Below are positions 1,668-16,602 of a stretch of 16,753 bases of DNA, one piece after another. A model generated the notes under the pieces. The model had not been told where the DNA came from, did no database searches, and was given only the letters and a program-made list of their open reading frames with translations. This stretch comes from Paraprevotella sp. (GTDB taxonomy: Bacteria; Bacteroidota; Bacteroidia; Bacteroidales; Bacteroidaceae). The stretch covers positions 1 through 16,753 of the forward strand of contig JAFOXE010000238.1 of assembly GCA_017425765.1 (NCBI GenBank), in the 5' to 3' direction. The stretch's first letter is position 1; every line of letters starts with the position of its first letter. The position numbers and the translations under genes were made by a program.

Positions 1668-3872
1668 TTATTCCTTCAAGTTCTTGATGAAGAAATTAGA
1701 GATGCTAGAGAATAAGTGATTACGTGTGTTTCCACCAAAGATACTGTGGTTGCGATTGGTGTAAGTAAGCATTGTAAAATACTTGTCGGCTTGCACCAGA
1801 GATTCTGTGTATTCGGCCACGTTGCGGAAATGTACGTTATCGTCGGCCAAACCATGGCATATGAGCAATTCTCCGTGCAGTTGGTTTGCTCTAGCCATAG
1901 GGTTGCGTTCGTATCCTGTTGGGTTTTCCTTAGGTGTACGCATGAAACGTTCGGTGTATACTGTGTCGTAGTAACGCCAACTTGTAGGAGGTGCCACGGC
2001 CACACCGGCGGCAAATACCGGACGACCTTCGCTCATACTCATTAGTGTGTTGAAACCGCCAAAGCTCCATCCCCAAATACCAATATTGTCCTTGTCAACA
2101 TACGGAAGTGAGCCCATGTAGATAGCAGTTTCTACTTGGTCTTTTGATTCCAAGTCGCCCAAGTTTAGGTATGTGCAACGCTCAAAAGCAGCGCCACGTC
2201 CGCCTGTCCCACGTCCGTCTACGCACACCATGATGAAGCCTTGCTGAGCCATGTATTGTTCGTACAAGGTTCCACCCATGTTTCCTGCATTCCAAGAGTC
2301 CACTACTTGTTGTGAACCTGGGCCGCTATATTGGAACAAAATAACCGGATACTTATGGCTTGCATCAAAGTTGGCGGGCTTTACCATATAACCATTAAGT
2401 TCTACACCTTCGCTAGTGGTGAAGGTGAAGAATTCGCGTGAACCCAAGTTTAATTTAGACAGTTTTTCATTTAGGGCCTTGTTGTCCACCAAAACTTTCA
2501 ATGTTTTTCCCTTGTTGTCGCAGAGAGATGTAATGGGTGGTGTGTTGATGTTTGAATATACATTCATAAAGTATTTCAAACTTTTACTGAACACAGCACT
2601 ATTTTGTCCCACTTGTTGAGAAAGTTTTGTGGTTTTTCCTTTCGAGTCTGTGCGATATACGGCAGTTCTCATTGGACTTTCTTGATTACTTGCATAGTAG
2701 AAGTCGCCTGTCTTTTCGTCCATTCCGTAGAAGTCGGTTACTACGAATGCCCCGGTCGTAACCTTTCTCAACAGCGTGCCGTTAAGATTATAATGGTACA
2801 AATGATTGTAACCATCGCGTTCACTCATCAATACGAAACTATTCTTGTAGAACTTAAGGTGTGTATATACTTGCTCTGTAATGTATTTGTCTACATTGTC
2901 GCGAAGAACAAGTTTACATTCGGTAGAACGAGGGTTGGCCATATATACATCCAAACAATCTTGATGACGGTTTTGTGTAAAGATTGCCAATTTGTCGGCA
3001 TCGTCAGTGAATTTGATGCGAGGGATATAACCGTCAGCCGTCAGAGGCAATTTCATTTCACGGATGACACGTGATTTGATATCGTAGGTATGCACGGTAA
3101 CGGTTGAATTTGTTTCGCCTGCTACAGGGTACTTGTATTCGTAACGACCTGGGTACAAGGCATATTCATCTTTAGTCGGCGTACTACCCTTATACCATGG
3201 GAATGAGTATACGGGAACCTTTGATTCATCGTAACGAATCCAGGCTATCATCGTATTGTCAGCGTTGAAGTCGAAGGAACAGTTTGTTGCGAATTCTTCC
3301 TCATATACCCAGTCGGGAATACCATTGATAATTTCGTTGAACTTACCGTCTTTCGTGATTTGACTTTCGCTATTATTAAATAGAAGTTTTACAAGGAATA
3401 GATTGTTGTCGCGTACGAAGGCCACCATGTTTCCGTCGCGTGAGAACATGGGAACTTGTTGCGGGCCATTTTCAGATAATGGAACAAGCGTTTTATTGCG
3501 TACGTTGTATAGGTAATATTCAGCTGTAAACGAGTGTCTGTAAATGGCTTTTGTCTTTGTTTGAATAAGGATGTTGCTCTCGTCGGGCGACATTATGTAG
3601 CCATCAATTCCATTGAGTTTTGCACCTCTGGCTGTGTTTACATCAAAGATAATGCCACTTTGTTCACCGTTTTTGAACGAGTATGATACGATTTGTTTGC
3701 GATCCGGACTGATTCTGGCAAAACTTTCGCCGTCGTTCAAAGGATTTACGCCATAGATTCTTTCGGCCGAATAATGTCCACCACAAAGGTCTTTTAAGGT
3801 TAGTTCGTTTTGGGCATGTGCATAACCCACCGCCAAAAGGCACCACAAGAGTGCTAAAAATGTTCTTTTCAT
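1668..3872 (-). CDS. Dipeptidyl peptidase IV, S9 family, exported
   Basis: Prolyl dipeptidyl aminopeptidase that removes X-Pro/X-Ala dipeptides from peptide N-termini, most likely in the periplasm or outer envelope. It is 734 residues, the usual DPP IV length. A signal peptide occupies residues 1-20 (cleavage after AHA). A beta-propeller (DPPIV_N) fills about 30-480. It contains DWVYEEE (187-193), the double-Glu motif that binds the free amino terminus and defines true DPP IV activity. The alpha/beta-hydrolase domain (about 490-734) carries the catalytic triad: Ser603 in GWSFGG, Asp677 in LADDNVHF and His709 in NRNHS. An in-frame GTG at 3900-3902 would add ten residues. That codon overlaps the -7 promoter box (3902-3909), so I chose the ATG at 3872, which also gives a clean signal peptide. 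It is divergent from the radical SAM gene and convergent with the methyltransferase gene. It probably feeds peptide uptake. Confidence 0.93.
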   Translation of the reverse strand: MKRTFLALLWCLLAVGYAHAQNELTLKDLCGGHYSAERIYGVNPLNDGESFARISPDRKQIVSYSFKNGEQSGIIFDVNTARGAKLNGIDGYIMSPDESNILIQTKTKAIYRHSFTAEYYLYNVRNKTLVPLSENGPQQVPMFSRDGNMVAFVRDNNLFLVKLLFNNSESQITKDGKFNEIINGIPDWVYEEEFATNCSFDFNADNTMIAWIRYDESKVPVYSFPWYKGSTPTKDEYALYPGRYEYKYPVAGETNSTVTVHTYDIKSRVIREMKLPLTADGYIPRIKFTDDADKLAIFTQNRHQDCLDVYMANPRSTECKLVLRDNVDKYITEQVYTHLKFYKNSFVLMSERDGYNHLYHYNLNGTLLRKVTTGAFVVTDFYGMDEKTGDFYYASNQESPMRTAVYRTDSKGKTTKLSQQVGQNSAVFSKSLKYFMNVYSNINTPPITSLCDNKGKTLKVLVDNKALNEKLSKLNLGSREFFTFTTSEGVELNGYMVKPANFDASHKYPVILFQYSGPGSQQVVDSWNAGNMGGTLYEQYMAQQGFIMVCVDGRGTGGRGAAFERCTYLNLGDLESKDQVETAIYMGSLPYVDKDNIGIWGWSFGGFNTLMSMSEGRPVFAAGVAVAPPTSWRYYDTVYTERFMRTPKENPTGYERNPMARANQLHGELLICHGLADDNVHFRNVAEYTESLVQADKYFTMLTYTNRNHSIFGGNTRNHLFSSISNFFIKNLKE

Positions 3873-3901
3873 AAATATAATAAGGTGTAGTTTTCTTTTC
3901 A

Positions 3902-3909
3902 CAAAGATA
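3902..3909 (-). promoter_or_regulatory. Bacteroidetes -7 box (TATCTTTG) for the DPP IV gene
   Basis: On the - strand this reads TATCTTTG, an exact TAnnTTTG match, 29 bases before the chosen ATG at 3872. I see no convincing -33 TTTG partner. Its position excludes the upstream GTG as a start codon. Confidence 0.6.
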
Positions 3910-5099: not shown

Positions 5100-7430
5100 A
5101 TGAAGAAGACATCAATGCTTTGGATTTACATGCTCATGTCGTTGCTTCCATATGCTCATGTACATGGTGCCTACATGAGCATGTCGGCACCCAATACACG
5201 AGCATCTGAAAAAACTATTCAGATGATAGTGAAAGCTAATGACTATTGGCAATCCACTCGCAAACCACAAGTATGGGCGTTTTGGGATCAGGCCGCATAC
5301 TATACAGGCAATATGGAAGTATACAAGTTGTTGGGAACACCCGCTTATTTGGAGTATAGCGAAAAGTGGTGTCGTCACAACCAGTGGAAGGGAGCGCTTA
5401 GTAATGATAAGCGTAAGTGGCGCTACGAAACTTATGGAGAAGGACATGATTTTGTATTGTTTGGAGATTGGCAAATCTGTTTCCAGACCTACGTAGATAT
5501 GTATCACCTAAGTCCTGCAGAATACAAGGTAGCACGTGCCAAGGAAGTGATGAGCTACGAATGTCATCATAAAGACAATAAGTTTTGGTGGTGGTCAGAT
5601 GCTTTGTATATGGTGATGCCCGTGATGACAAAAATGTATCATCTTACCGGTGATAAAATGTACTTAGATAAGCTTTATGAAAACTTTCTTTGGAGCGATA
5701 GCTTGATGTTCGACCACGAGGCACAACTATATTACCGTGATGCAAAGTATATATATCCTAAAGTAAAGACGGCTAGCGGAGGAAAGAGCTTTTGGGCTCG
5801 TGGTGATGGTTGGGTCTTAGCGGGATTGGCTAAGGTTCTGGCCGATCTGCCAAAGGATTACGAGCACCGTGATTTCTTTGAATTGCGTTTCCGCCAATTG
5901 GCAGAGGGCGTGGCTCGTTGTCAGCAAGAGCAGGGCTATTGGAGCAGAAGTATGTTGTGCGAAGCTGATGCGCCCGGACCGGAAACCAGTGGAACAGCGT
6001 TCTTTACTTATGGCCTTTTGTGGGGTGTAAACCATGGATATCTTGATCGAGCCACTTACGAGCCCGTTATCAACAAGGCATGGAAGTATCTGAGTGAGGT
6101 GGCTTTGCAGGAGGACGGAAGTATTGGTTATGTTCAACCTATCGGTGAGAAGCCTGACCCAACGCGCACCGTCAACGCTCGTTCGCAAGCACCGTTTGGG
6201 ACCGGTGCGTGGTTGTTGGCCGCTTGCGAAATGGTACGTTATCAGGATAATAGTGTGAATGCAAAGGAAAAAGATTCTTTTACCTTCTCGGTTAAGAATC
6301 CTACTTCATGGAATCGTAGCGATGTAGTGGAGTTGGATGCACATAAAGTTTTTGATCGTTTGGCCATTGGCGGCGGACGTCAGTTTGTGATATGCGATGG
6401 CGATGGCGTGGAGGTGCCTTATCAATTGACTCACGACGACAAAATTTTGATACAGGCTTTTGTACGTGCCAATCAATCTTCTACCTTCCGTGTGAGTAAG
6501 GGCGTTCCCGGTGTGTATACTAATTATGCCAACGGACGAGTGTATACCGAGCGCCAGGATGATTTAGCTTGGGAGAACGATCGCAATGGATGGCGTGCTT
6601 ATGGTCCGGGCTCGCAATCGCGAAATCAAAAGATTTATGGCTTGGACTTGTTTACCAAGAATGCACCATTGCCGGTGGTAGACGACCTATATCACGGAGA
6701 ACTAACTTCGTATGGCATACAAGATCGTATGCGCAAGGCCGGTCGTGGACATGAAACAGAAGCATTCCATCGTACCATGACTTATCACCGCGATCACGGC
6801 CGTGGCATGGATGCCTATACCGTAGGTTCCACTTTAGGTGCCGGAGCACCAGCTTTGATGGTAGACGGTAATTTGCAATATAGTTGGTGTTGGAAGGAGT
6901 GTGAGGTGCTGGACAATGGCCCGTTGCGTTTCACTGCAAAACTTACCTATCATCCGCAAGCCGTAGGCAATGATAAAGACGTTATAGAAACCCGTATCAT
7001 AAGCTTAGATAAGGGGGCACATCTCAATAAGATGCAAGTGGAATATACAAATCTTTCTGCTCCCACCATGTGTGCTGCCGGTGTTGTTGTTCATAAGTCT
7101 GCCCCTGAGGCCTATGCAGTGAACAAGAAACAAGGCTATGTAGCCGTAGCCGATGCGATGGATCATCCCGAAGCACAAAACGGTGAGGTTTACATCGGAT
7201 GCTTATTCTCGGAGAAAATGAAGAAGGTACAATACCTTCCTCTAGAGAAGGAAGTTGCCGGAGGAGTTGGACATGTGTTAGGTATGACCGAGTATCAACC
7301 GGGTCAGAAATTTACATACTATTTCGGTTCAGCGTGGAGCAAGTACGATGTGCCTACTCTTGAGGCATGGCAAGGTGTGTTGAAACAAACACGTGCCAAT
7401 TTGCAACAACCGTTGCAAGTAGTGTTCTAA
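5100..7430 (+). CDS. Exported GH105 (unsaturated uronyl hydrolase) fused to DUF4861
   Basis: A 776-residue exported two-domain protein. Residues 1-23 form a signal peptide (hydrophobic core MLWIYMLMSLLPYA; no lipobox). Residues about 35-382 match the GH88/GH105 (alpha/alpha)6 fold. FWWWSDALYM (162-171) holds the probable acid/base Asp167, corresponding to the catalytic Asp of YteR. Further family landmarks are SFWARGDGWV (230-239), ETSGTAFFTYGLLWG (295-309) and FGTGAWLLAACE (366-377). Such enzymes hydrate and cleave the terminal delta-4,5-unsaturated galacturonate or glucuronate left by polysaccharide lyases. Residues about 393-776 match DUF4861, a domain of unknown function often attached to or encoded near GH105/GH88 enzymes in Bacteroidetes. 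The gene has its own promoter and terminator. No lyase, SusC/D or regulator lies beside it, so the substrate (rhamnogalacturonan, arabinogalactan-protein or other) cannot be settled from context. Confidence 0.88.
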   Translation: MKKTSMLWIYMLMSLLPYAHVHGAYMSMSAPNTRASEKTIQMIVKANDYWQSTRKPQVWAFWDQAAYYTGNMEVYKLLGTPAYLEYSEKWCRHNQWKGALSNDKRKWRYETYGEGHDFVLFGDWQICFQTYVDMYHLSPAEYKVARAKEVMSYECHHKDNKFWWWSDALYMVMPVMTKMYHLTGDKMYLDKLYENFLWSDSLMFDHEAQLYYRDAKYIYPKVKTASGGKSFWARGDGWVLAGLAKVLADLPKDYEHRDFFELRFRQLAEGVARCQQEQGYWSRSMLCEADAPGPETSGTAFFTYGLLWGVNHGYLDRATYEPVINKAWKYLSEVALQEDGSIGYVQPIGEKPDPTRTVNARSQAPFGTGAWLLAACEMVRYQDNSVNAKEKDSFTFSVKNPTSWNRSDVVELDAHKVFDRLAIGGGRQFVICDGDGVEVPYQLTHDDKILIQAFVRANQSSTFRVSKGVPGVYTNYANGRVYTERQDDLAWENDRNGWRAYGPGSQSRNQKIYGLDLFTKNAPLPVVDDLYHGELTSYGIQDRMRKAGRGHETEAFHRTMTYHRDHGRGMDAYTVGSTLGAGAPALMVDGNLQYSWCWKECEVLDNGPLRFTAKLTYHPQAVGNDKDVIETRIISLDKGAHLNKMQVEYTNLSAPTMCAAGVVVHKSAPEAYAVNKKQGYVAVADAMDHPEAQNGEVYIGCLFSEKMKKVQYLPLEKEVAGGVGHVLGMTEYQPGQKFTYYFGSAWSKYDVPTLEAWQGVLKQTRANLQQPLQVVF

Positions 7431-7463
7431 TGAATCTTGTTTAGCATAGAATTTGCAGAAATA

Positions 7464-7503
7464 AATAGGTGCACTTCTCTCTTGGAAGGTGCACCTATTC
7501 TTT
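7464..7503 (+). terminator. Intrinsic terminator after the GH105-DUF4861 gene
   Basis: Arms AATAGGTGCAC (7464-7474) and GTGCACCTATT (7489-7499) pair perfectly. A further 3-bp pairing inside them is set off by one bulge. The hairpin begins 33 bases after the stop codon and is followed by CTTTATATATA, a weak T-rich tail. It faces the terminator of the convergent - strand operon. Confidence 0.75.
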
Positions 7504-7514
7504 ATATATAACGA

Positions 7515-7554
7515 AAACCTCCCTAGGGAATGAAGAATCTCTATAGGGCGGTTT
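7515..7554 (-). terminator. Terminator of the DUF6057-lipoprotein-peptidase operon
   Basis: Arms 7515-7525 and 7544-7554 pair with one mismatch (AAACC-T-CCCTA against TAGGG-C-GGTTT). Read on the - strand, the distal arm ends in GGTTTT followed by CGTTATATATA. It starts about 30 bases past the stop codon of the last operon gene, as expected for a rho-independent terminator. Confidence 0.6.
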
Positions 7555-7586
7555 GTGTATGTCTTTTCTTGCAGTGGAGTAGAGGC

Positions 7587-9857
7587 TTATTTTACCTCGT
7601 CCCAGGCGGGTGGATTCTTCTTCATCAAGTGGCGTACAAAGAAATCGTAGCGTTTGTGTTCGCCAAAGGCGTCGCCCATGGTGTGTTTTCCTCCGGGCAA
7701 TACCACAAGTTCAAAATCCTTTCCTGCACGGATGAGGGCAGCAGCTACTTGCATGGTAGATGCCGGATCGACGTTATCGTCCATTTCGCCCACAACCAAC
7801 ATCAAAGGTCGGGTTAGTTTATGGGCATTCTCTACGTTCGAGCTAGCAATGTAACTACTATCTACAGGATAGCCCATCCACTGTTCGTTCCACCATATTT
7901 TGTCCATACGGTTATCGTGGCATCCGCAACTGGAGTAGGCCGCTTTGTAAAACTCAGGATGGAACAAAACTGCTGCTGTCGACTCTTGTCCACCGGCTGA
8001 TGCACCATATATACCCACATTGTTGAGGTCCATATAGGGATATTTCGCTGCAGCTGCACGCATCCACTCCATGCGGTCGGGAAATCCGGCATCCTTAAGA
8101 TTCTTGTAGCATACGTCCTCAAATTTTTTCCCGCGATATGAGGTACCCATAGCATCCAATTGCACCACGATAAACCCTAATTCAGCTAACGCTGTCATGT
8201 TGTGATTATACGAAAGGAAACTTTTGGGTGTATAAGCATCGCCGGGTCCGGCATATATGTACTCGATAATTGGGTAGCTGCGGTTGGGATCGAAGTTCGT
8301 AGGACGTTGAATCAATCCCCACATCATTGTTTTTCCATCGCGTCCCGGAGCTGCAAACACCTCCGGCATTTGCCATCCTTGTTCCACAAGACGGCTGATA
8401 TCAGCGCAGGATATGATCTGCGTTTCTTCAGGATTCTCTACACTTCGCAACACCGTTACAGGGGCTTGGTCTGCTCGCGAATACGTGTCAATAAGGTATG
8501 TGAAATCTTCGTTAAACTGCACATCATGGTTCCCATTTTCAGGTGTTAGGCATTTCATGTTTTTGCCGTCAAGCCCGATGCTGTAGTAGTGAATCAAATA
8601 TGGATCTTCGTTAGGATTTACTCCGCTTGCGGTAAAATAAATTTTGCCTTTGGTTTCGTCCACTTTTACAACTCGTCTTACTACCCATTCACCACGAGTA
8701 ATTTGTTTCACAACCTTGGCCTTTTCCCAATCATATAAGTATAGGTGGTTCCAATTGTCGCGTTCGCTCATCCATAGCATCTCTCGTTCGTCTTTAAGCG
8801 GATGGCGGAAGTATCTATTGTAGTTTACGAATGTGTTACTTTTTTCTTCTATCACGGTACGTATAGCCCCGCTTGTGGCATCCATTTCCAACACTCGGTA
8901 TATTTGATGTCCTCGTTGGTTGTATTCAAACACCACTTTCGTACCCTCCTTGTTCCATCTTGGACCACGTAAATCGTATTGGTGTGAAAAAAGTTCCGTG
9001 GAGGGTGTAATCGTTTTGCCGGCATCTACATCAAACACGCACGGCACTTTGAATCTGAGTTCATCACCCGGCTTGGCATATTCTTGTTTATGTAGAATAG
9101 GTTGCAGTTGAGTTCGTGGAGCACTTTCCACATAATATACATAGCGTTTTTCTGCGGGGCGGATGCGGTTTCCGCAGATTTTGCGTCCATCAGCGCTCCA
9201 TTGCAGATAACTTGAGTAATAGTTGCCCGGCGTACCGTCGTTGCTTAGTGCTCTTTCGTTCTTTCCATCGACATCCGACACATACACGTTGTCGTTTTTT
9301 ATGTAAGCCACATGTTTGCCGTCCGGTGAGGGAACGGGGCGTCCGTTTTTTTCATCGTCCACTTCCATCCAATGACGCTGACGACGTGAATTTCTTTTTT
9401 GTTCCACGGCATGTTCCTTCTTTACAATCGGTGTGTTGGAACAGCTTTCTTCAACGCTCCAATGAAAGTTACGGAAAACGAAACGCAAGGTTGTGGGATT
9501 TGACGTATCGCAGTAAACATGCTCCAATCGGAGGTGCGAACGTGTGATGTTTTGCTTCATTTGAACAGAGATAGCCGAAGCTATGGAATCCATGTTAACG
9601 GCTCGGATGTCGGTCTTACCGTCTTTAAGCGTACCTACAAAATAAGCCCTGCCTTTAGGTGTATGGGTGGCGTATGAGAAGGTTTGGTTTCCGTACCAAC
9701 GAATTTCTGAGGCTTGGTCGTATACATTTCCCGAATGGAACTTACCATACGCAGAATAGGCGCGTTTATAGTCTTCTGCTGTGCCTTGGGCGCGACACAC
9801 AGCACTACTGATAAATACTCCCAAGAGCAGCCATGAGGCGAATATAAAGTTTTTCAT
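7587..9857 (-). CDS. Exported S9-family serine peptidase with DPP IV-type propeller
   Basis: A 756-residue S9 peptidase, last gene of the three-gene - strand operon. A signal peptide covers about residues 1-24 (MKNFIFASWLLLGVFISSAVCRAQ). A beta-propeller domain follows (about 30-500), including the RHWMEVDDEK segment (161-170) typical of this Bacteroidetes branch. The C-terminal alpha/beta-hydrolase domain (about 505-756) has the full triad: Ser620 in GASAGG, Asp693 in EMDDNVDP and His725 in GGKHTMGD. I see no DW-EE-type double-Glu motif in the propeller, unlike the DPP IV at 1668-3872. A strict dipeptidyl aminopeptidase specificity is therefore doubtful, and prolyl-oligopeptidase or other acyl-peptidase activity is possible. 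An in-frame TTG at 9863 would add two residues, but the ATG at 9857 gives a normal signal peptide and a 9-base gap to the upstream gene. Substrate unknown. The operon context suggests it works with the lipoprotein and the DUF6057 membrane protein. Confidence 0.88.
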   Translation of the reverse strand: MKNFIFASWLLLGVFISSAVCRAQGTAEDYKRAYSAYGKFHSGNVYDQASEIRWYGNQTFSYATHTPKGRAYFVGTLKDGKTDIRAVNMDSIASAISVQMKQNITRSHLRLEHVYCDTSNPTTLRFVFRNFHWSVEESCSNTPIVKKEHAVEQKRNSRRQRHWMEVDDEKNGRPVPSPDGKHVAYIKNDNVYVSDVDGKNERALSNDGTPGNYYSSYLQWSADGRKICGNRIRPAEKRYVYYVESAPRTQLQPILHKQEYAKPGDELRFKVPCVFDVDAGKTITPSTELFSHQYDLRGPRWNKEGTKVVFEYNQRGHQIYRVLEMDATSGAIRTVIEEKSNTFVNYNRYFRHPLKDEREMLWMSERDNWNHLYLYDWEKAKVVKQITRGEWVVRRVVKVDETKGKIYFTASGVNPNEDPYLIHYYSIGLDGKNMKCLTPENGNHDVQFNEDFTYLIDTYSRADQAPVTVLRSVENPEETQIISCADISRLVEQGWQMPEVFAAPGRDGKTMMWGLIQRPTNFDPNRSYPIIEYIYAGPGDAYTPKSFLSYNHNMTALAELGFIVVQLDAMGTSYRGKKFEDVCYKNLKDAGFPDRMEWMRAAAAKYPYMDLNNVGIYGASAGGQESTAAVLFHPEFYKAAYSSCGCHDNRMDKIWWNEQWMGYPVDSSYIASSNVENAHKLTRPLMLVVGEMDDNVDPASTMQVAAALIRAGKDFELVVLPGGKHTMGDAFGEHKRYDFFVRHLMKKNPPAWDEVK

Positions 9858-9866
9858 ATACAAAGA

Positions 9867-11366
9867 TTATTTTCGACCCGAGTAAATTGCTTTTCGGGCT
9901 TCTTTTTTCATGTTCTTGGCCAAGGTTTGAGCCGATACCGTAACCTTTCCTTTCATAAATTCAGGAATGTTATAACTGCGTAGCATGTTGCGATGATGTT
10001 CCGGATTTTTTTGAGGAAGTTCAAATGCTTTTCGTGGCATTCCCGAACTGTCGATGAAAGCAAAGAACGGACGGGTGAAATTTCCGTCGTTTCGGCGACT
10101 GCTTACCACCATCCAGCGTCCGTTGCTGCTCCACGAGTGGTAACTTTCTACATCAGCCGAATTCATTTCCGTAAGCGGTTTTACATTCCCTGTTTGAAGG
10201 TCGAGCATATAAAGGTCGGCATCCTTATGCCAAATGTGGAACACGCCAAATTCTCCCATCGTAAATACTAAGAACTTTCCATCTGGCGAAATACGAGGAA
10301 GTGTGGCACTTTTGTCCATGGACGCCGCGTCGAACACCATTTCACGTGGCCCGAATTTTAGCGTCTGTATATCAAATGACTTACGATATAGCGAATATTT
10401 TATATTCTTGTAGTTGCGAATCAATTCGTATTCTAAAGTCGTGGTATCTTTCTTCTCGTAGTGTGCCGAACAATAGTATAAATACTTGCCATCCGGGCTC
10501 CACCATGGAAAACATTCCATTTCAGCAGAGTCTTGTGCCACGGTATATACTCGGTTATTTTCTAAATCATACAGAATCAAATCACTTTGGGTATCTTGTA
10601 CTTCCACCTTCTGTAAATCGCGGGTATGAAAGCTTTGTCCTGTTAGGTTGGTGGAGTAAGCGATGAATTTTGCTGTGGGATGCCATGCGGGATATACACC
10701 TGCCGATATCGTAGAGTCGGTTTTTAAGTTTATTTTTTGAATATTTCCGTCGTAGTTGATGAGCGTTCCACCGTGTGCCTGACGGCCGTGAAATTGCATT
10801 CTGTTTGGGTTGTAGTTCTGATAGGAATGGCAATTGATACATTGCCCATCTTTTTCGTTCGACGTCAACATGTTGCTGAAGATGATGCTTTCCTCAAAGT
10901 CAGATAGGTTTCTTTGGCAGATCACAAGGTTTTCATATGCCACATACGAAGGTGCTATAAGTCGGTAGGATAGATAAGAATCAATGGAATCAGATTTTAC
11001 CCACATCGTGAAAGGGGTGAATCGTTGCCATGATTTCCCATTACGTACATATATTTCAATGTCTATTTGATTGTTTATGGCACTTTCTGTAATAGTGCGC
11101 CATGTGTTTATGTCGTGACAAACATTTTGACCTTTAATCGTCCACACACCGCCTGGAGTCGTAAACTGCGTAATGTATTCGTCAGCTTCCCACTCAATGC
11201 GAAAGTTCATTGGGGCTATATTGCATGGTATGGTTACGTCGGTATAGTCGGGATATATTGAGGGCTTGTTTTGCACCTTCTCATATTGTTGAGGCACTTT
11301 GACTTCACATGCAGTCATCAAACTGATAAGAGCCAGACCGAAAATAAGTTTTATATAGATGCGCAT
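9867..11366 (-). CDS. Lipoprotein with one CXXCH haem-c motif and a TolB/PD40-like propeller
   Basis: A 499-residue exported protein of unknown function. The signal peptide ends in SLMTAC, with Cys20 as the probable lipidation site, followed by Glu21-Val22. Residues about 30-165 form a region I cannot assign. At 176-180 is CINCH, the classical CXXCH site for covalent haem c, inside a cysteine- and histidine-bearing stretch (about 164-201) with possible distal ligands Met190, His193 or His198. Four PD40/WD40-like blade motifs follow: AWHPTAKFIAYS (227-238), WWSPDGKYLYYCS (288-300), RISPDGKFLVFT (358-369) and SWSSNGRWMVVSS (411-423). A basic tail (KNMKKEARKA) ends the protein. The start at 11366 lies 3 bases after the DUF6057 stop and the stop lies 9 bases before the peptidase start, so translation is probably coupled. 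Haem attachment is inferred from the motif; redox sensing, electron transfer or a purely structural role all remain open. Confidence 0.82.
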   Translation of the reverse strand: MRIYIKLIFGLALISLMTACEVKVPQQYEKVQNKPSIYPDYTDVTIPCNIAPMNFRIEWEADEYITQFTTPGGVWTIKGQNVCHDINTWRTITESAINNQIDIEIYVRNGKSWQRFTPFTMWVKSDSIDSYLSYRLIAPSYVAYENLVICQRNLSDFEESIIFSNMLTSNEKDGQCINCHSYQNYNPNRMQFHGRQAHGGTLINYDGNIQKINLKTDSTISAGVYPAWHPTAKFIAYSTNLTGQSFHTRDLQKVEVQDTQSDLILYDLENNRVYTVAQDSAEMECFPWWSPDGKYLYYCSAHYEKKDTTTLEYELIRNYKNIKYSLYRKSFDIQTLKFGPREMVFDAASMDKSATLPRISPDGKFLVFTMGEFGVFHIWHKDADLYMLDLQTGNVKPLTEMNSADVESYHSWSSNGRWMVVSSRRNDGNFTRPFFAFIDSSGMPRKAFELPQKNPEHHRNMLRSYNIPEFMKGKVTVSAQTLAKNMKKEARKAIYSGRK

Positions 11367-11369
11367 AGC

Positions 11370-13226
11370 TTAGTTGGTTTTAATGTTACGTACTAGGAAA
11401 TAGTAGTAGAAGAAGGTATTGCCAAATTGCGGATAGAAGGCCACAGCTTTCTGCTCCTCACTCATGGTGCCACACTTTTGGTTGAACTCCATGAATGCCT
11501 TGTAAGTGGCTTTCACTTCCGGGTCGAACGGCATTTTGCTGATGTCCACTTTGTTTTCAAGTTGTCCATACAGATAAACGGCTTCTTGATAATGTCGAGG
11601 CATAGTCCTCTCCTTTTCGTGTAAATTGGCGTAGTGGAAAAAACGTGGCCAAAACAAGTCTATATCCTTCAAGAGCATGGCAGAAATAAGTGTTTGCTCT
11701 TGATATAGGGGATCTTCCCCATGTCCTCTAGCAAAGCTGTTCAGCAGATACAATTCTACCAATGTGTTGTCACCATCCAGTTGGTCGCCATAGTTCATCA
11801 TGTGGGTGATAGGACCTAATTCTTCATCGTTTTTGATTAAATCGGGGCGATGAAGTAACGATTCGTATTTCTTAGCCTTATCGCCATGGAACAAGGTTTG
11901 TTTCAATATTTGGATGTATTTCTTGGCCACTTCCCAATCCTCATTGAGCAGTGCAGTTTTGGTCATCACTTTCAAATTTTCTATACTCCAACCAAATTCC
12001 ACACAATCCTCCATGCACCAGCGGTAGGCAAAATTACATTTTCCATAGTGCATATACAGTTGCTTGCCACCGGTTTGTGCCATTCGTACTCCAAAGTCCG
12101 CCTTAGGAGTTGTGCCACCCTCTGGATATGTAAACATCTCGTCGCCCGCTTTACCCATACGGAATAGGGCAAGATTACGATTCATTACGATAAGTCGGGT
12201 GGGAGCACCACCGGAGCCATCTCGTGCAATGCGTAGCACTGTGTTCCAGTCGGCTTCTTCTATGGCACGCGCCATTTTCAACTCTTTCTTAAAATTATGG
12301 TCTTCGTACCAGCGTAGGCTTACGCCCCAAACAACAAGAGCCATTAAACACAATTGAACAGCACCGCACATCCATGCGGGGGATTTCCAGCGTGTAGGAA
12401 TACCTACTGCCACAAGCGGCAACCATGCCACGAACATGGCGTAGTAGGCATATTTGAATTCTGTCAGTATCGTTTCGCCCACTTGAAGGCATGGCATACC
12501 GGCTACATATACAAATTCGCCGGCCGTCTGCTGGTAGATGAAAGCAGCTGCACACGGCACAAGAGCTGTGCTCAACAGAGCTATTATCGTGTTCGCTATG
12601 CGTGTGTTCCATTTTGCGCTTTCTTCGATTAGGTTCAGCAGAGCCATGTATAATGTTCCTGCAAAACTCCATGCACCAAAGAGTGCATATCCGGCTGCTG
12701 CCCATAATATGGTCCATGTCAAACGCAGTCCGTTTCGGTAGGGCAACAGTCGCCAGATCCATAGCGATGCGGCCGAAAAAAACATTCCCAACGTAGGTAC
12801 AAAGATATAGCCTGCCAACTTAACATAGAAGATAAAATAGCCTGTCTGTACAATAGCGGCCAACAGGGCTGCCGGAAGAACAAGCAGAAGTCCGAACCAC
12901 CGTACCGGAAGTCGAAATGCTTGAGATACCATCCATAAAGTAGCCCACCACAACAACACAAGTAGTAGAATTCCCACTTGCGGAATGTATAATATTTGGG
13001 TGCAAAAGGCACCCATCCACGACAAACTTCCTCCGGGGTAGGTGGCCAGCTGTTCATAGAATTGTGCGGTGGGCAGAAACAGGTTTAGCTCTTGGGCGCG
13101 AAACAGAAATTCGCTTTCGCCTCCTAATCCTTTAAGGCCCACAACGAGCAATATACACATCAAAATCAGGTGCCCACCAATGGTTTGCCACATGGGCGAC
13201 ATTTTACTCCATAGTTTTATGTTCAT
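11370..13226 (-). CDS. DUF6057-type polytopic membrane protein with large soluble C-terminal region
   Basis: A 618-residue inner-membrane protein matching, from recall, the Bacteroidetes family DUF6057 (function unknown). About eight hydrophobic segments can be seen near residues 17-35, 74-100, 109-128, 130-155, 168-195, 212-231, 258-277 and 285-304. Between the first two is a roughly 40-residue polar loop containing EFLFRAQELNLFLPTAQFYE and YPGG. Residues about 308-618 are soluble and predominantly helix-like, with short repeated helical stretches (for example NEDWEVAKKYIQIL, 428-441) that resemble TPR-type packing; this is inference. The N-terminus is basic, suggesting a cytoplasmic start. 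It is the first gene of a three-gene operon and begins about 65 bases after a TACCTTTG box. The next gene starts 3 bases after its stop. It may anchor or energise a complex with the downstream haem lipoprotein and S9 peptidase, but no direct evidence shows this. Confidence 0.82.
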   Translation of the reverse strand: MNIKLWSKMSPMWQTIGGHLILMCILLVVGLKGLGGESEFLFRAQELNLFLPTAQFYEQLATYPGGSLSWMGAFCTQILYIPQVGILLLVLLWWATLWMVSQAFRLPVRWFGLLLVLPAALLAAIVQTGYFIFYVKLAGYIFVPTLGMFFSAASLWIWRLLPYRNGLRLTWTILWAAAGYALFGAWSFAGTLYMALLNLIEESAKWNTRIANTIIALLSTALVPCAAAFIYQQTAGEFVYVAGMPCLQVGETILTEFKYAYYAMFVAWLPLVAVGIPTRWKSPAWMCGAVQLCLMALVVWGVSLRWYEDHNFKKELKMARAIEEADWNTVLRIARDGSGGAPTRLIVMNRNLALFRMGKAGDEMFTYPEGGTTPKADFGVRMAQTGGKQLYMHYGKCNFAYRWCMEDCVEFGWSIENLKVMTKTALLNEDWEVAKKYIQILKQTLFHGDKAKKYESLLHRPDLIKNDEELGPITHMMNYGDQLDGDNTLVELYLLNSFARGHGEDPLYQEQTLISAMLLKDIDLFWPRFFHYANLHEKERTMPRHYQEAVYLYGQLENKVDISKMPFDPEVKATYKAFMEFNQKCGTMSEEQKAVAFYPQFGNTFFYYYFLVRNIKTN

Positions 13227-13290
13227 CTTTCTTTATCGGTTTTCCTTATAAGGTAAATTGCGTGCAAGTGTATCGGCACATAAGCACATC

Positions 13291-13298
13291 CAAAGGTA
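13291..13298 (-). promoter_or_regulatory. Bacteroidetes -7 box (TACCTTTG) for the three-gene operon
   Basis: On the - strand this reads TACCTTTG, an exact TAnnTTTG match, 64 bases before the ATG at 13226. No good -33 partner is visible. It is the only promoter-like signal I find for the operon, and the inner gaps of 3 and 9 bases leave no room for others. Confidence 0.5.
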
Positions 13299-13371
13299 CG
13301 AATTAACTGTAGATTATGTATAATTTTTACCTATTTTTTATAAAAAGTGGGCGTGCACGGTTGTTCCTTAG

Positions 13372-16602
<3,231 letters not shown>

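Follow-up and report, generated by a model that had tools for sequence, protein, structure and literature searches.

In a 16,753-nucleotide stretch of Paraprevotella sp. DNA (assembly GCA_017425765.1, contig JAFOXE010000238.1, C214 in our numbering; hereafter the window), three tightly packed minus-strand genes encode a membrane protein of the family DUF6057, a TolB-like lipoprotein with a CXXCH motif and a PD40 propeller, and an exported S9 peptidase, as they had been named in a first-pass annotation made from the letters alone and as the open reading frames and Pfam agree. The first two genes form a two-gene unit of gut and rumen Bacteroidales whose parts almost never separate, and they are almost certainly an obligate pair, while the peptidase is an optional accessory of the pair in some lineages. 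An open-licence literature search returned no paper on DUF6057 and no description of such a membrane protein-lipoprotein pair, and so widespread an obligate pair, for which no function has been described, is a clear target. The lipoprotein probably carries a c-type haem. The assembly that contains the window comprises 1.71 Mb in 257 contigs and is 70.7% complete.

Distribution and co-encoding of the pair

The family sample consisted of 61 genomes, namely the window's own and 60 that are at least 90% complete, with the lipoprotein scored as present by a match to the profile A1 at E <= 1e-60, and DUF6057 by a match longer than a class of proteins of about 390 residues. Both genes were found in the same 45 genomes. 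In the remaining 16 the lipoprotein profile finds nothing at that threshold, and the DUF6057 match is absent in eight of them and only weaker in eight (best 2.9e-16), including, among the matches listed, proteins of 387 and 405 residues in G158 and G172, respectively. Throughout these family genomes, 106 of the 112 lipoprotein genes have a same-strand DUF6057 gene no more than 2.5 kb away, and 114 of the 117 DUF6057 genes have a lipoprotein gene in the same way; among the six remaining lipoprotein genes, three have DUF6057 within 2.5 kb on the opposite strand, two come from the window's own incomplete genome, where they sit on other contigs, and the last (G151) is about 5.6 kb off. In a wider set of 201 loci with 219 deduplicated lipoprotein genes, DUF6057 lies directly upstream in 189 cases, directly downstream in 18, and on the opposite strand in three, with nine genes at the edge of a locus or apart. 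The count over the 112 and 117 genes is the fairer one, because the 201 loci were mostly retrieved by the lipoprotein match (20 came by the DUF6057 match).

A single genome can hold as many as six copies of the lipoprotein, and the paralogous pairs diverge jointly: in multi-copy genomes the divergence of the partners is correlated across 84 pairs with rho of 0.55, versus a mean of 0.15 and a maximum of 0.31 in within-genome shuffles. DUF6057 is the faster-changing partner, with a median identity of 0.20 versus 0.39 for the lipoprotein. Above the cut-off, DUF6057 was found in 14 of 119 genomes of the order and in three of 148 of the phylum, the own genome being counted in both. Weak matches outside the order were considered as hints of origin and rejected: among those inspected, the five with a Pfam assignment are MMPL, MacB/FtsX, FtsW (two) and AI-2E transporters, which align by chance through their hydrophobic stretches.

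Two variants of the arrangement were also seen. The loci L096, L179, L181 and L185 (genus g95 and a relative) have the order DUF6057-PD40-DUF6057-S9, the second DUF6057 being without a lipoprotein of its own, and a MatE transporter-type gene follows in L096, L179 and L181. A protein of about 383 residues with a DUF6057-like C-terminal end and no PD40 partner in view is encoded at G000:C235:1827-2948 (L014, L015), and similar proteins of about 385-405 residues are encoded by pair-less genomes of the family.

The peptidase as an optional accessory

The third gene product scores 165.1 bits for DPPIV_N and 157.1 for Peptidase_S9 (cut-offs 22 and 22.6), with Ser622 in the sequence GASAGG and, as read by eye, Asp and then His in the expected order. 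Its relatives in the PDB are dipeptidyl peptidases IV (DPPIV), best E 5.4e-45, the closest sequences being bacterial, and it shares with them the propeller and hydrolase domains, but it lacks the YEEE stretch, the Glu pair of which defines dipeptidyl specificity. The window has a second S9 gene that does contain this stretch, a DPPIV with the sequence WVYEEE encoded at 1668-3902 on the operon's strand; its distance from the peptidase of the operon is about 120 bits.

With an orthologue defined as a match above 600 bits, the peptidase occurs in 26 of the 61 family genomes. It is directly behind the DUF6057-lipoprotein module in 13 of them (G000, G159, G161, G163, G164, G168, G179, G183, G186, G195, G198, G199 and G201) and elsewhere, with the module not adjacent, in the other 13, five of which (G158, G171, G172, G173 and G190) are genomes without the pair; conversely, no orthologue above that score was found in 24 of the 45 pair-bearing genomes. 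Since half of the orthologues lie away from the pair, an obligate three-gene system was rejected. The linkage was found in the genera g1, g95, g97, g99 and g103 of the 22 searched, as well as in the metagenome-assembled loci L091, L094 and L096, and on the peptidase tree it needs four changes, at least three of which are forced by well-supported branches, which points to repeated gain or loss. Thus, the linkage exceeds a frozen accident, yet falls short of a system.

The first-pass annotation had proposed that the three genes make one envelope complex, in which a haem propeller would be coupled to peptide cleavage. The packing of the peptidase gene into the operon and the 13 orthologues in five genera directly behind the module, a linkage made or kept more than once, are in keeping with this proposal; however, the unlinked half of the orthologues, including those in pair-less genomes, and the many pair genomes devoid of an orthologue make such a complex improbable. 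The downstream position is otherwise mixed: among the 92 scanned genes that come next after the module on its strand, no Pfam family was found in more than six (Amidase_3 and Fasciclin, the next reaching five), and hence no common third gene. Of the proposed single system, therefore, the strongly conserved co-encoding of membrane protein and lipoprotein has stood, and the peptidase has dropped out of it; the survey of DUF6057 neighbours that had been suggested as a check gave the same division, with the lipoprotein adjacent nearly everywhere and the peptidase linked in a few genera only.

The lipoprotein and the haem question

The lipoprotein matches PD40 with 53.7 bits (cut-off 20.9), and its relatives carry the Pfam domains PF26549 and PF26550; the search with it gave at least 7,974 matches among 8,000 candidates. 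Its lipobox ends at Cys20, and the CXXCH motif, here CINCH, takes residues 176-180, as read from the sequence with the alignment columns checked. A confident AlphaFold model predicts the whole TolB fold, that is the N-terminal domain and the six-bladed propeller known from TolB of the Tol-Pal system, from which the protein differs in its lipoprotein nature, its invariant CXXCH hairpin and its pairing with DUF6057. It was not filed as TolB, because its score for the NCBIfam TolB model is 46.5 bits, below the cut-off of 343.15.

Among the 219 lipoproteins the CXXCH motif is kept in all, N178 in 218, R195 in 219 and H193 in 211. The c-type haem is supported indirectly, because this motif is kept and because the genes of cytochrome c assembly track the pair in genomes without NrfA. 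Both assembly families, PF01578 and PF05140, are present in the own genome, and at least one of them in 44 of the 45 pair-bearing genomes, as compared with 11 of the 16 without the pair (p 0.004). In the 49 NrfA-less genomes the proportions are 39/40 with the pair and 4/9 without it (Fisher p 3.7e-4), a sub-cut-off PF01578 match in G171 being scored as absent. The coupling recurs inside single genera: in g85, pair and assembly genes are both missing from G149 and G171 and both present in G188 and G203, the last of which also has NrfA; in g87, they occur together in G151 and G204 and are both lacking in G172, and G189 combines NrfA with assembly genes. Should the lipoprotein be a cytochrome, NrfA-less bacteria would have a reason to keep cytochrome c assembly.

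Several points weigh against a haem. The assembly-gene statistics ignore kinship; G177 lacks both assembly families despite its four lipoprotein genes; and in the model, which is haem-free, CINCH lies within a propeller beta strand (175-183), while haem-c motifs are normally at the end of a helix. The last two would suit a CXXCH hairpin that is haem-free and binds another metal or acts through its thiols, with the CcsBA system kept for other clients. The Asn fixed at the third position of the motif, which is unusual for haem c, agrees with that, as do the four genomes without pair and NrfA that retain assembly genes, by which other assembly clients must exist. Nevertheless, the association of assembly genes with the pair in NrfA-less genomes, its recurrence within g85 and g87, and a candidate second axial ligand in His193 argue for the haem, and the haem-free hairpin appears to be a minor contender. 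The haem-c site named in the first-pass annotation has accordingly been strengthened as an invariant motif with an assembly-gene association, while a haem as such is not to be read from the sequence alone.

The DUF6057 protein and a possible mechanism

The DUF6057 protein matches PF19529 with 307.7 bits (cut-off 29.8) over the profile positions 25-567 of 569. It consists of a polytopic membrane part (residues about 8-308, with nine membrane helices as read by eye) and a soluble part resembling tetratricopeptide repeats (TPR; about 309-618), which is probably periplasmic. In the AlphaFold model (mean predicted local distance difference test score 95.6) the membrane part bears a weak resemblance to GT-C glycosyltransferases, and the tail resembles TPR. 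A search of the PDB with the single protein sequence gave nothing at E <= 1, while the DUF6057 profile had TPR proteins as its best matches (E 0.016). The mean share of the top residue is 0.46 on the TPR side versus 0.36 on the membrane side. Since family-wide conservation concerns the pairing and, by a small margin over the membrane part, the TPR side, DUF6057 is read as being mainly a membrane-borne TPR platform.

On these grounds a two-protein envelope module may be suggested, in which DUF6057, as an inner-membrane protein, would hold its cognate lipoprotein by a TPR tail standing in the periplasm, the CcsBA system would load one c-type haem on the lipoprotein, and the haem propeller would give the complex its redox or ligand-sensing function. 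The membrane core may be of GT-C glycosyltransferase origin, with sugar transfer possibly kept in the window's own subgroup, and the module often stands beside glycan-uptake and glycoside-hydrolase genes. The obligate pairing, the joint divergence, the kept CXXCH and the optional nature of the peptidase are direct findings. The TPR tail and the TolB fold are predicted folds supported by confident models; haem attachment, docking, membrane side and function are what we infer from them and from the comparisons. Docking of the cognate lipoprotein by the tail, which is drawn by analogy, is about an even proposition, and the module as a whole, with docking and loading together, is a tentative proposal with somewhat less than even chances. 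Two findings on the membrane protein count against it: Foldseek with the model gave no PDB match at E <= 0.001, although an unlisted GT-C family is possible, and in the 54 most distant rows of the alignment both sides are poorly conserved (0.34 and 0.31).

The analogy is with CcmI and NrfG, whose TPR parts are reported to bind apocytochromes (PMC3884852); there a CXXCH protein goes with a TPR part that is tied to the membrane and lies in the periplasm, as is suggested for DUF6057. DUF6057 differs in its large polytopic core and in the presence of one DUF6057 per lipoprotein copy. Hydrazine synthase of Kuenenia (5c2v) is also among the closest known systems. A bolder form of the proposal, in which a GT-C-derived membrane protein would carry a dedicated haem-c TolB-like propeller on its TPR tail, and the many copies in a genome, set beside particular glycan-use loci, would each provide one glycan-uptake locus with a membrane step under redox control, the haem being held by a beta hairpin within a propeller blade, is rather doubtful, and we know of no solved structure with a c-type haem on such a hairpin.

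The GT-C resemblance may also be taken further, with DUF6057 as a GT-C glycosyltransferase that is still active, bears a TPR tail like the eukaryotic TMTC enzymes and, on the periplasmic side, transfers a lipid-linked sugar; the lipoprotein would be its dedicated acceptor or docking subunit. The nearest known enzymes are the TPR-tailed TMTC1-4, together with PMT and OST enzymes (PMC7801869, PMC6801728): the membrane core of DUF6057 is weakly similar to theirs in arrangement, and its TPR part is likewise C-terminal. A DxD/DD-type acid pair was found in the first external loop in 60 of 115 rows, namely in 52 of the 63 nearer and eight of the 54 distant ones, and the window's own protein has it (ESE). 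However, DUF6057 has about nine helices versus 11 or more in those enzymes, the acid pair expected of GT-C is not family-wide, and there is a constant bacterial partner with a haem motif; an active transferase is considered unlikely, though less so than the three-gene complex. If the membrane core does transfer sugars, DUF6057 would be a bacterial counterpart of the TPR-tailed O-mannosyltransferases. The docking platform for a putative haem lipoprotein is preferred here.

Genomic setting

Of 97 family loci, 18 have SusD-like genes within 8 kb, where the SusD numbers of whole genomes would predict 5.4, in a comparison for which the SusD model was built from these same neighbourhoods, an even spread is assumed and the counts in SusD-rich genomes are approximate. 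The representative neighbours comprise TonB receptors, SusD, GH10, GH16, GH26, GH28, GH43, GH97 and fasciclin proteins, the upstream ones having been scanned as cluster representatives out of 104 listed genes. In the Parabacteroides distasonis locus L294 (2591-16564), DUF4369 and two tandem DUF6057-PD40 pairs are followed by a run of glycosyl hydrolase, glycosidase, MFS transporter, AGE epimerase and sialate O-acetylesterase genes, which we take to be of beta-mannan type, and GH26-type genes stand in the matching position in L160, L251 and L149. Many pair loci adjoin housekeeping genes, such as pfkA and meaB in P. distasonis, a species with several pairs, so that glycan use is a tendency and no rule. 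If the lipoprotein is a cytochrome, periplasmic redox chemistry would be linked to glycan use.

Separately, in L112, L115 and L116 the pair is preceded by a protein of about 1380 residues (Peptidase_M60 in L115, the one scanned) and followed by a glucosamine-6-phosphate isomerase-type gene. A phage or defence role was rejected, with no PADLOC match and only esterase-type PHROGs matches, which concern the peptidase, and so was a spread by plasmids: six PLSDB records match, and among the three inspected two carry housekeeping genes and look chromosomal, the third being poorly annotated.

Gene layout and transcription signals

The features of the operon are collected in Table 1. The first-pass annotation gave the intergenic gaps as 3 and 9 bases; the first, between DUF6057 and lipoprotein genes, is confirmed, and the second, between lipoprotein and peptidase genes, is 9 bases with the ATG start and 3 with the TTG start.

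Table 1. Coordinates of the operon and its candidate signals in the window
Feature	Position	Strand	Length	Start or location	Basis
DUF6057 protein gene	11370..13226	-	618 aa	ATG	
CXXCH/PD40 TolB-like lipoprotein gene	9867..11366	-	499 aa	ATG	
Exported S9 peptidase gene	7587..9863	-	758 aa	TTG at 9863, or ATG two codons on at 9857	
Terminator-like hairpin	7463..7500	-		3' of peptidase gene	folding energy vs shuffles
TACCTTTG, possible Bacteroidota -7 promoter element	13291..13298	-			pattern match

The terminator suggested earlier is supported by folding: the hairpin has 16 pairs and -19.5 kcal/mol (z -4.9 against shuffles), with AUUUCU following, and it is not among the matches of a terminator consensus scan. 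It lies between converging genes, the other of which ends at 7430, and may serve both. The promoter-like box fared less well. The pattern TACCTTTG is present 65 bases 5' of the DUF6057 start codon, and it is a mere consensus match, no better than chance, because TANNTTTG occurs 19 times in the window versus 14.4 expected, a sigma-70-like scan of 6500-14500 gave 14 matches versus 14.4 expected, and no -33 element was seen by eye beside TACCTTTG.

The operon is flanked by a gene for a GH88 domain fused to DUF4861 (BT_3233 family) at 5100-7430, which converges on it, and by a LacZ-type GH2 gene at 13456-16602, divergent from its other end.

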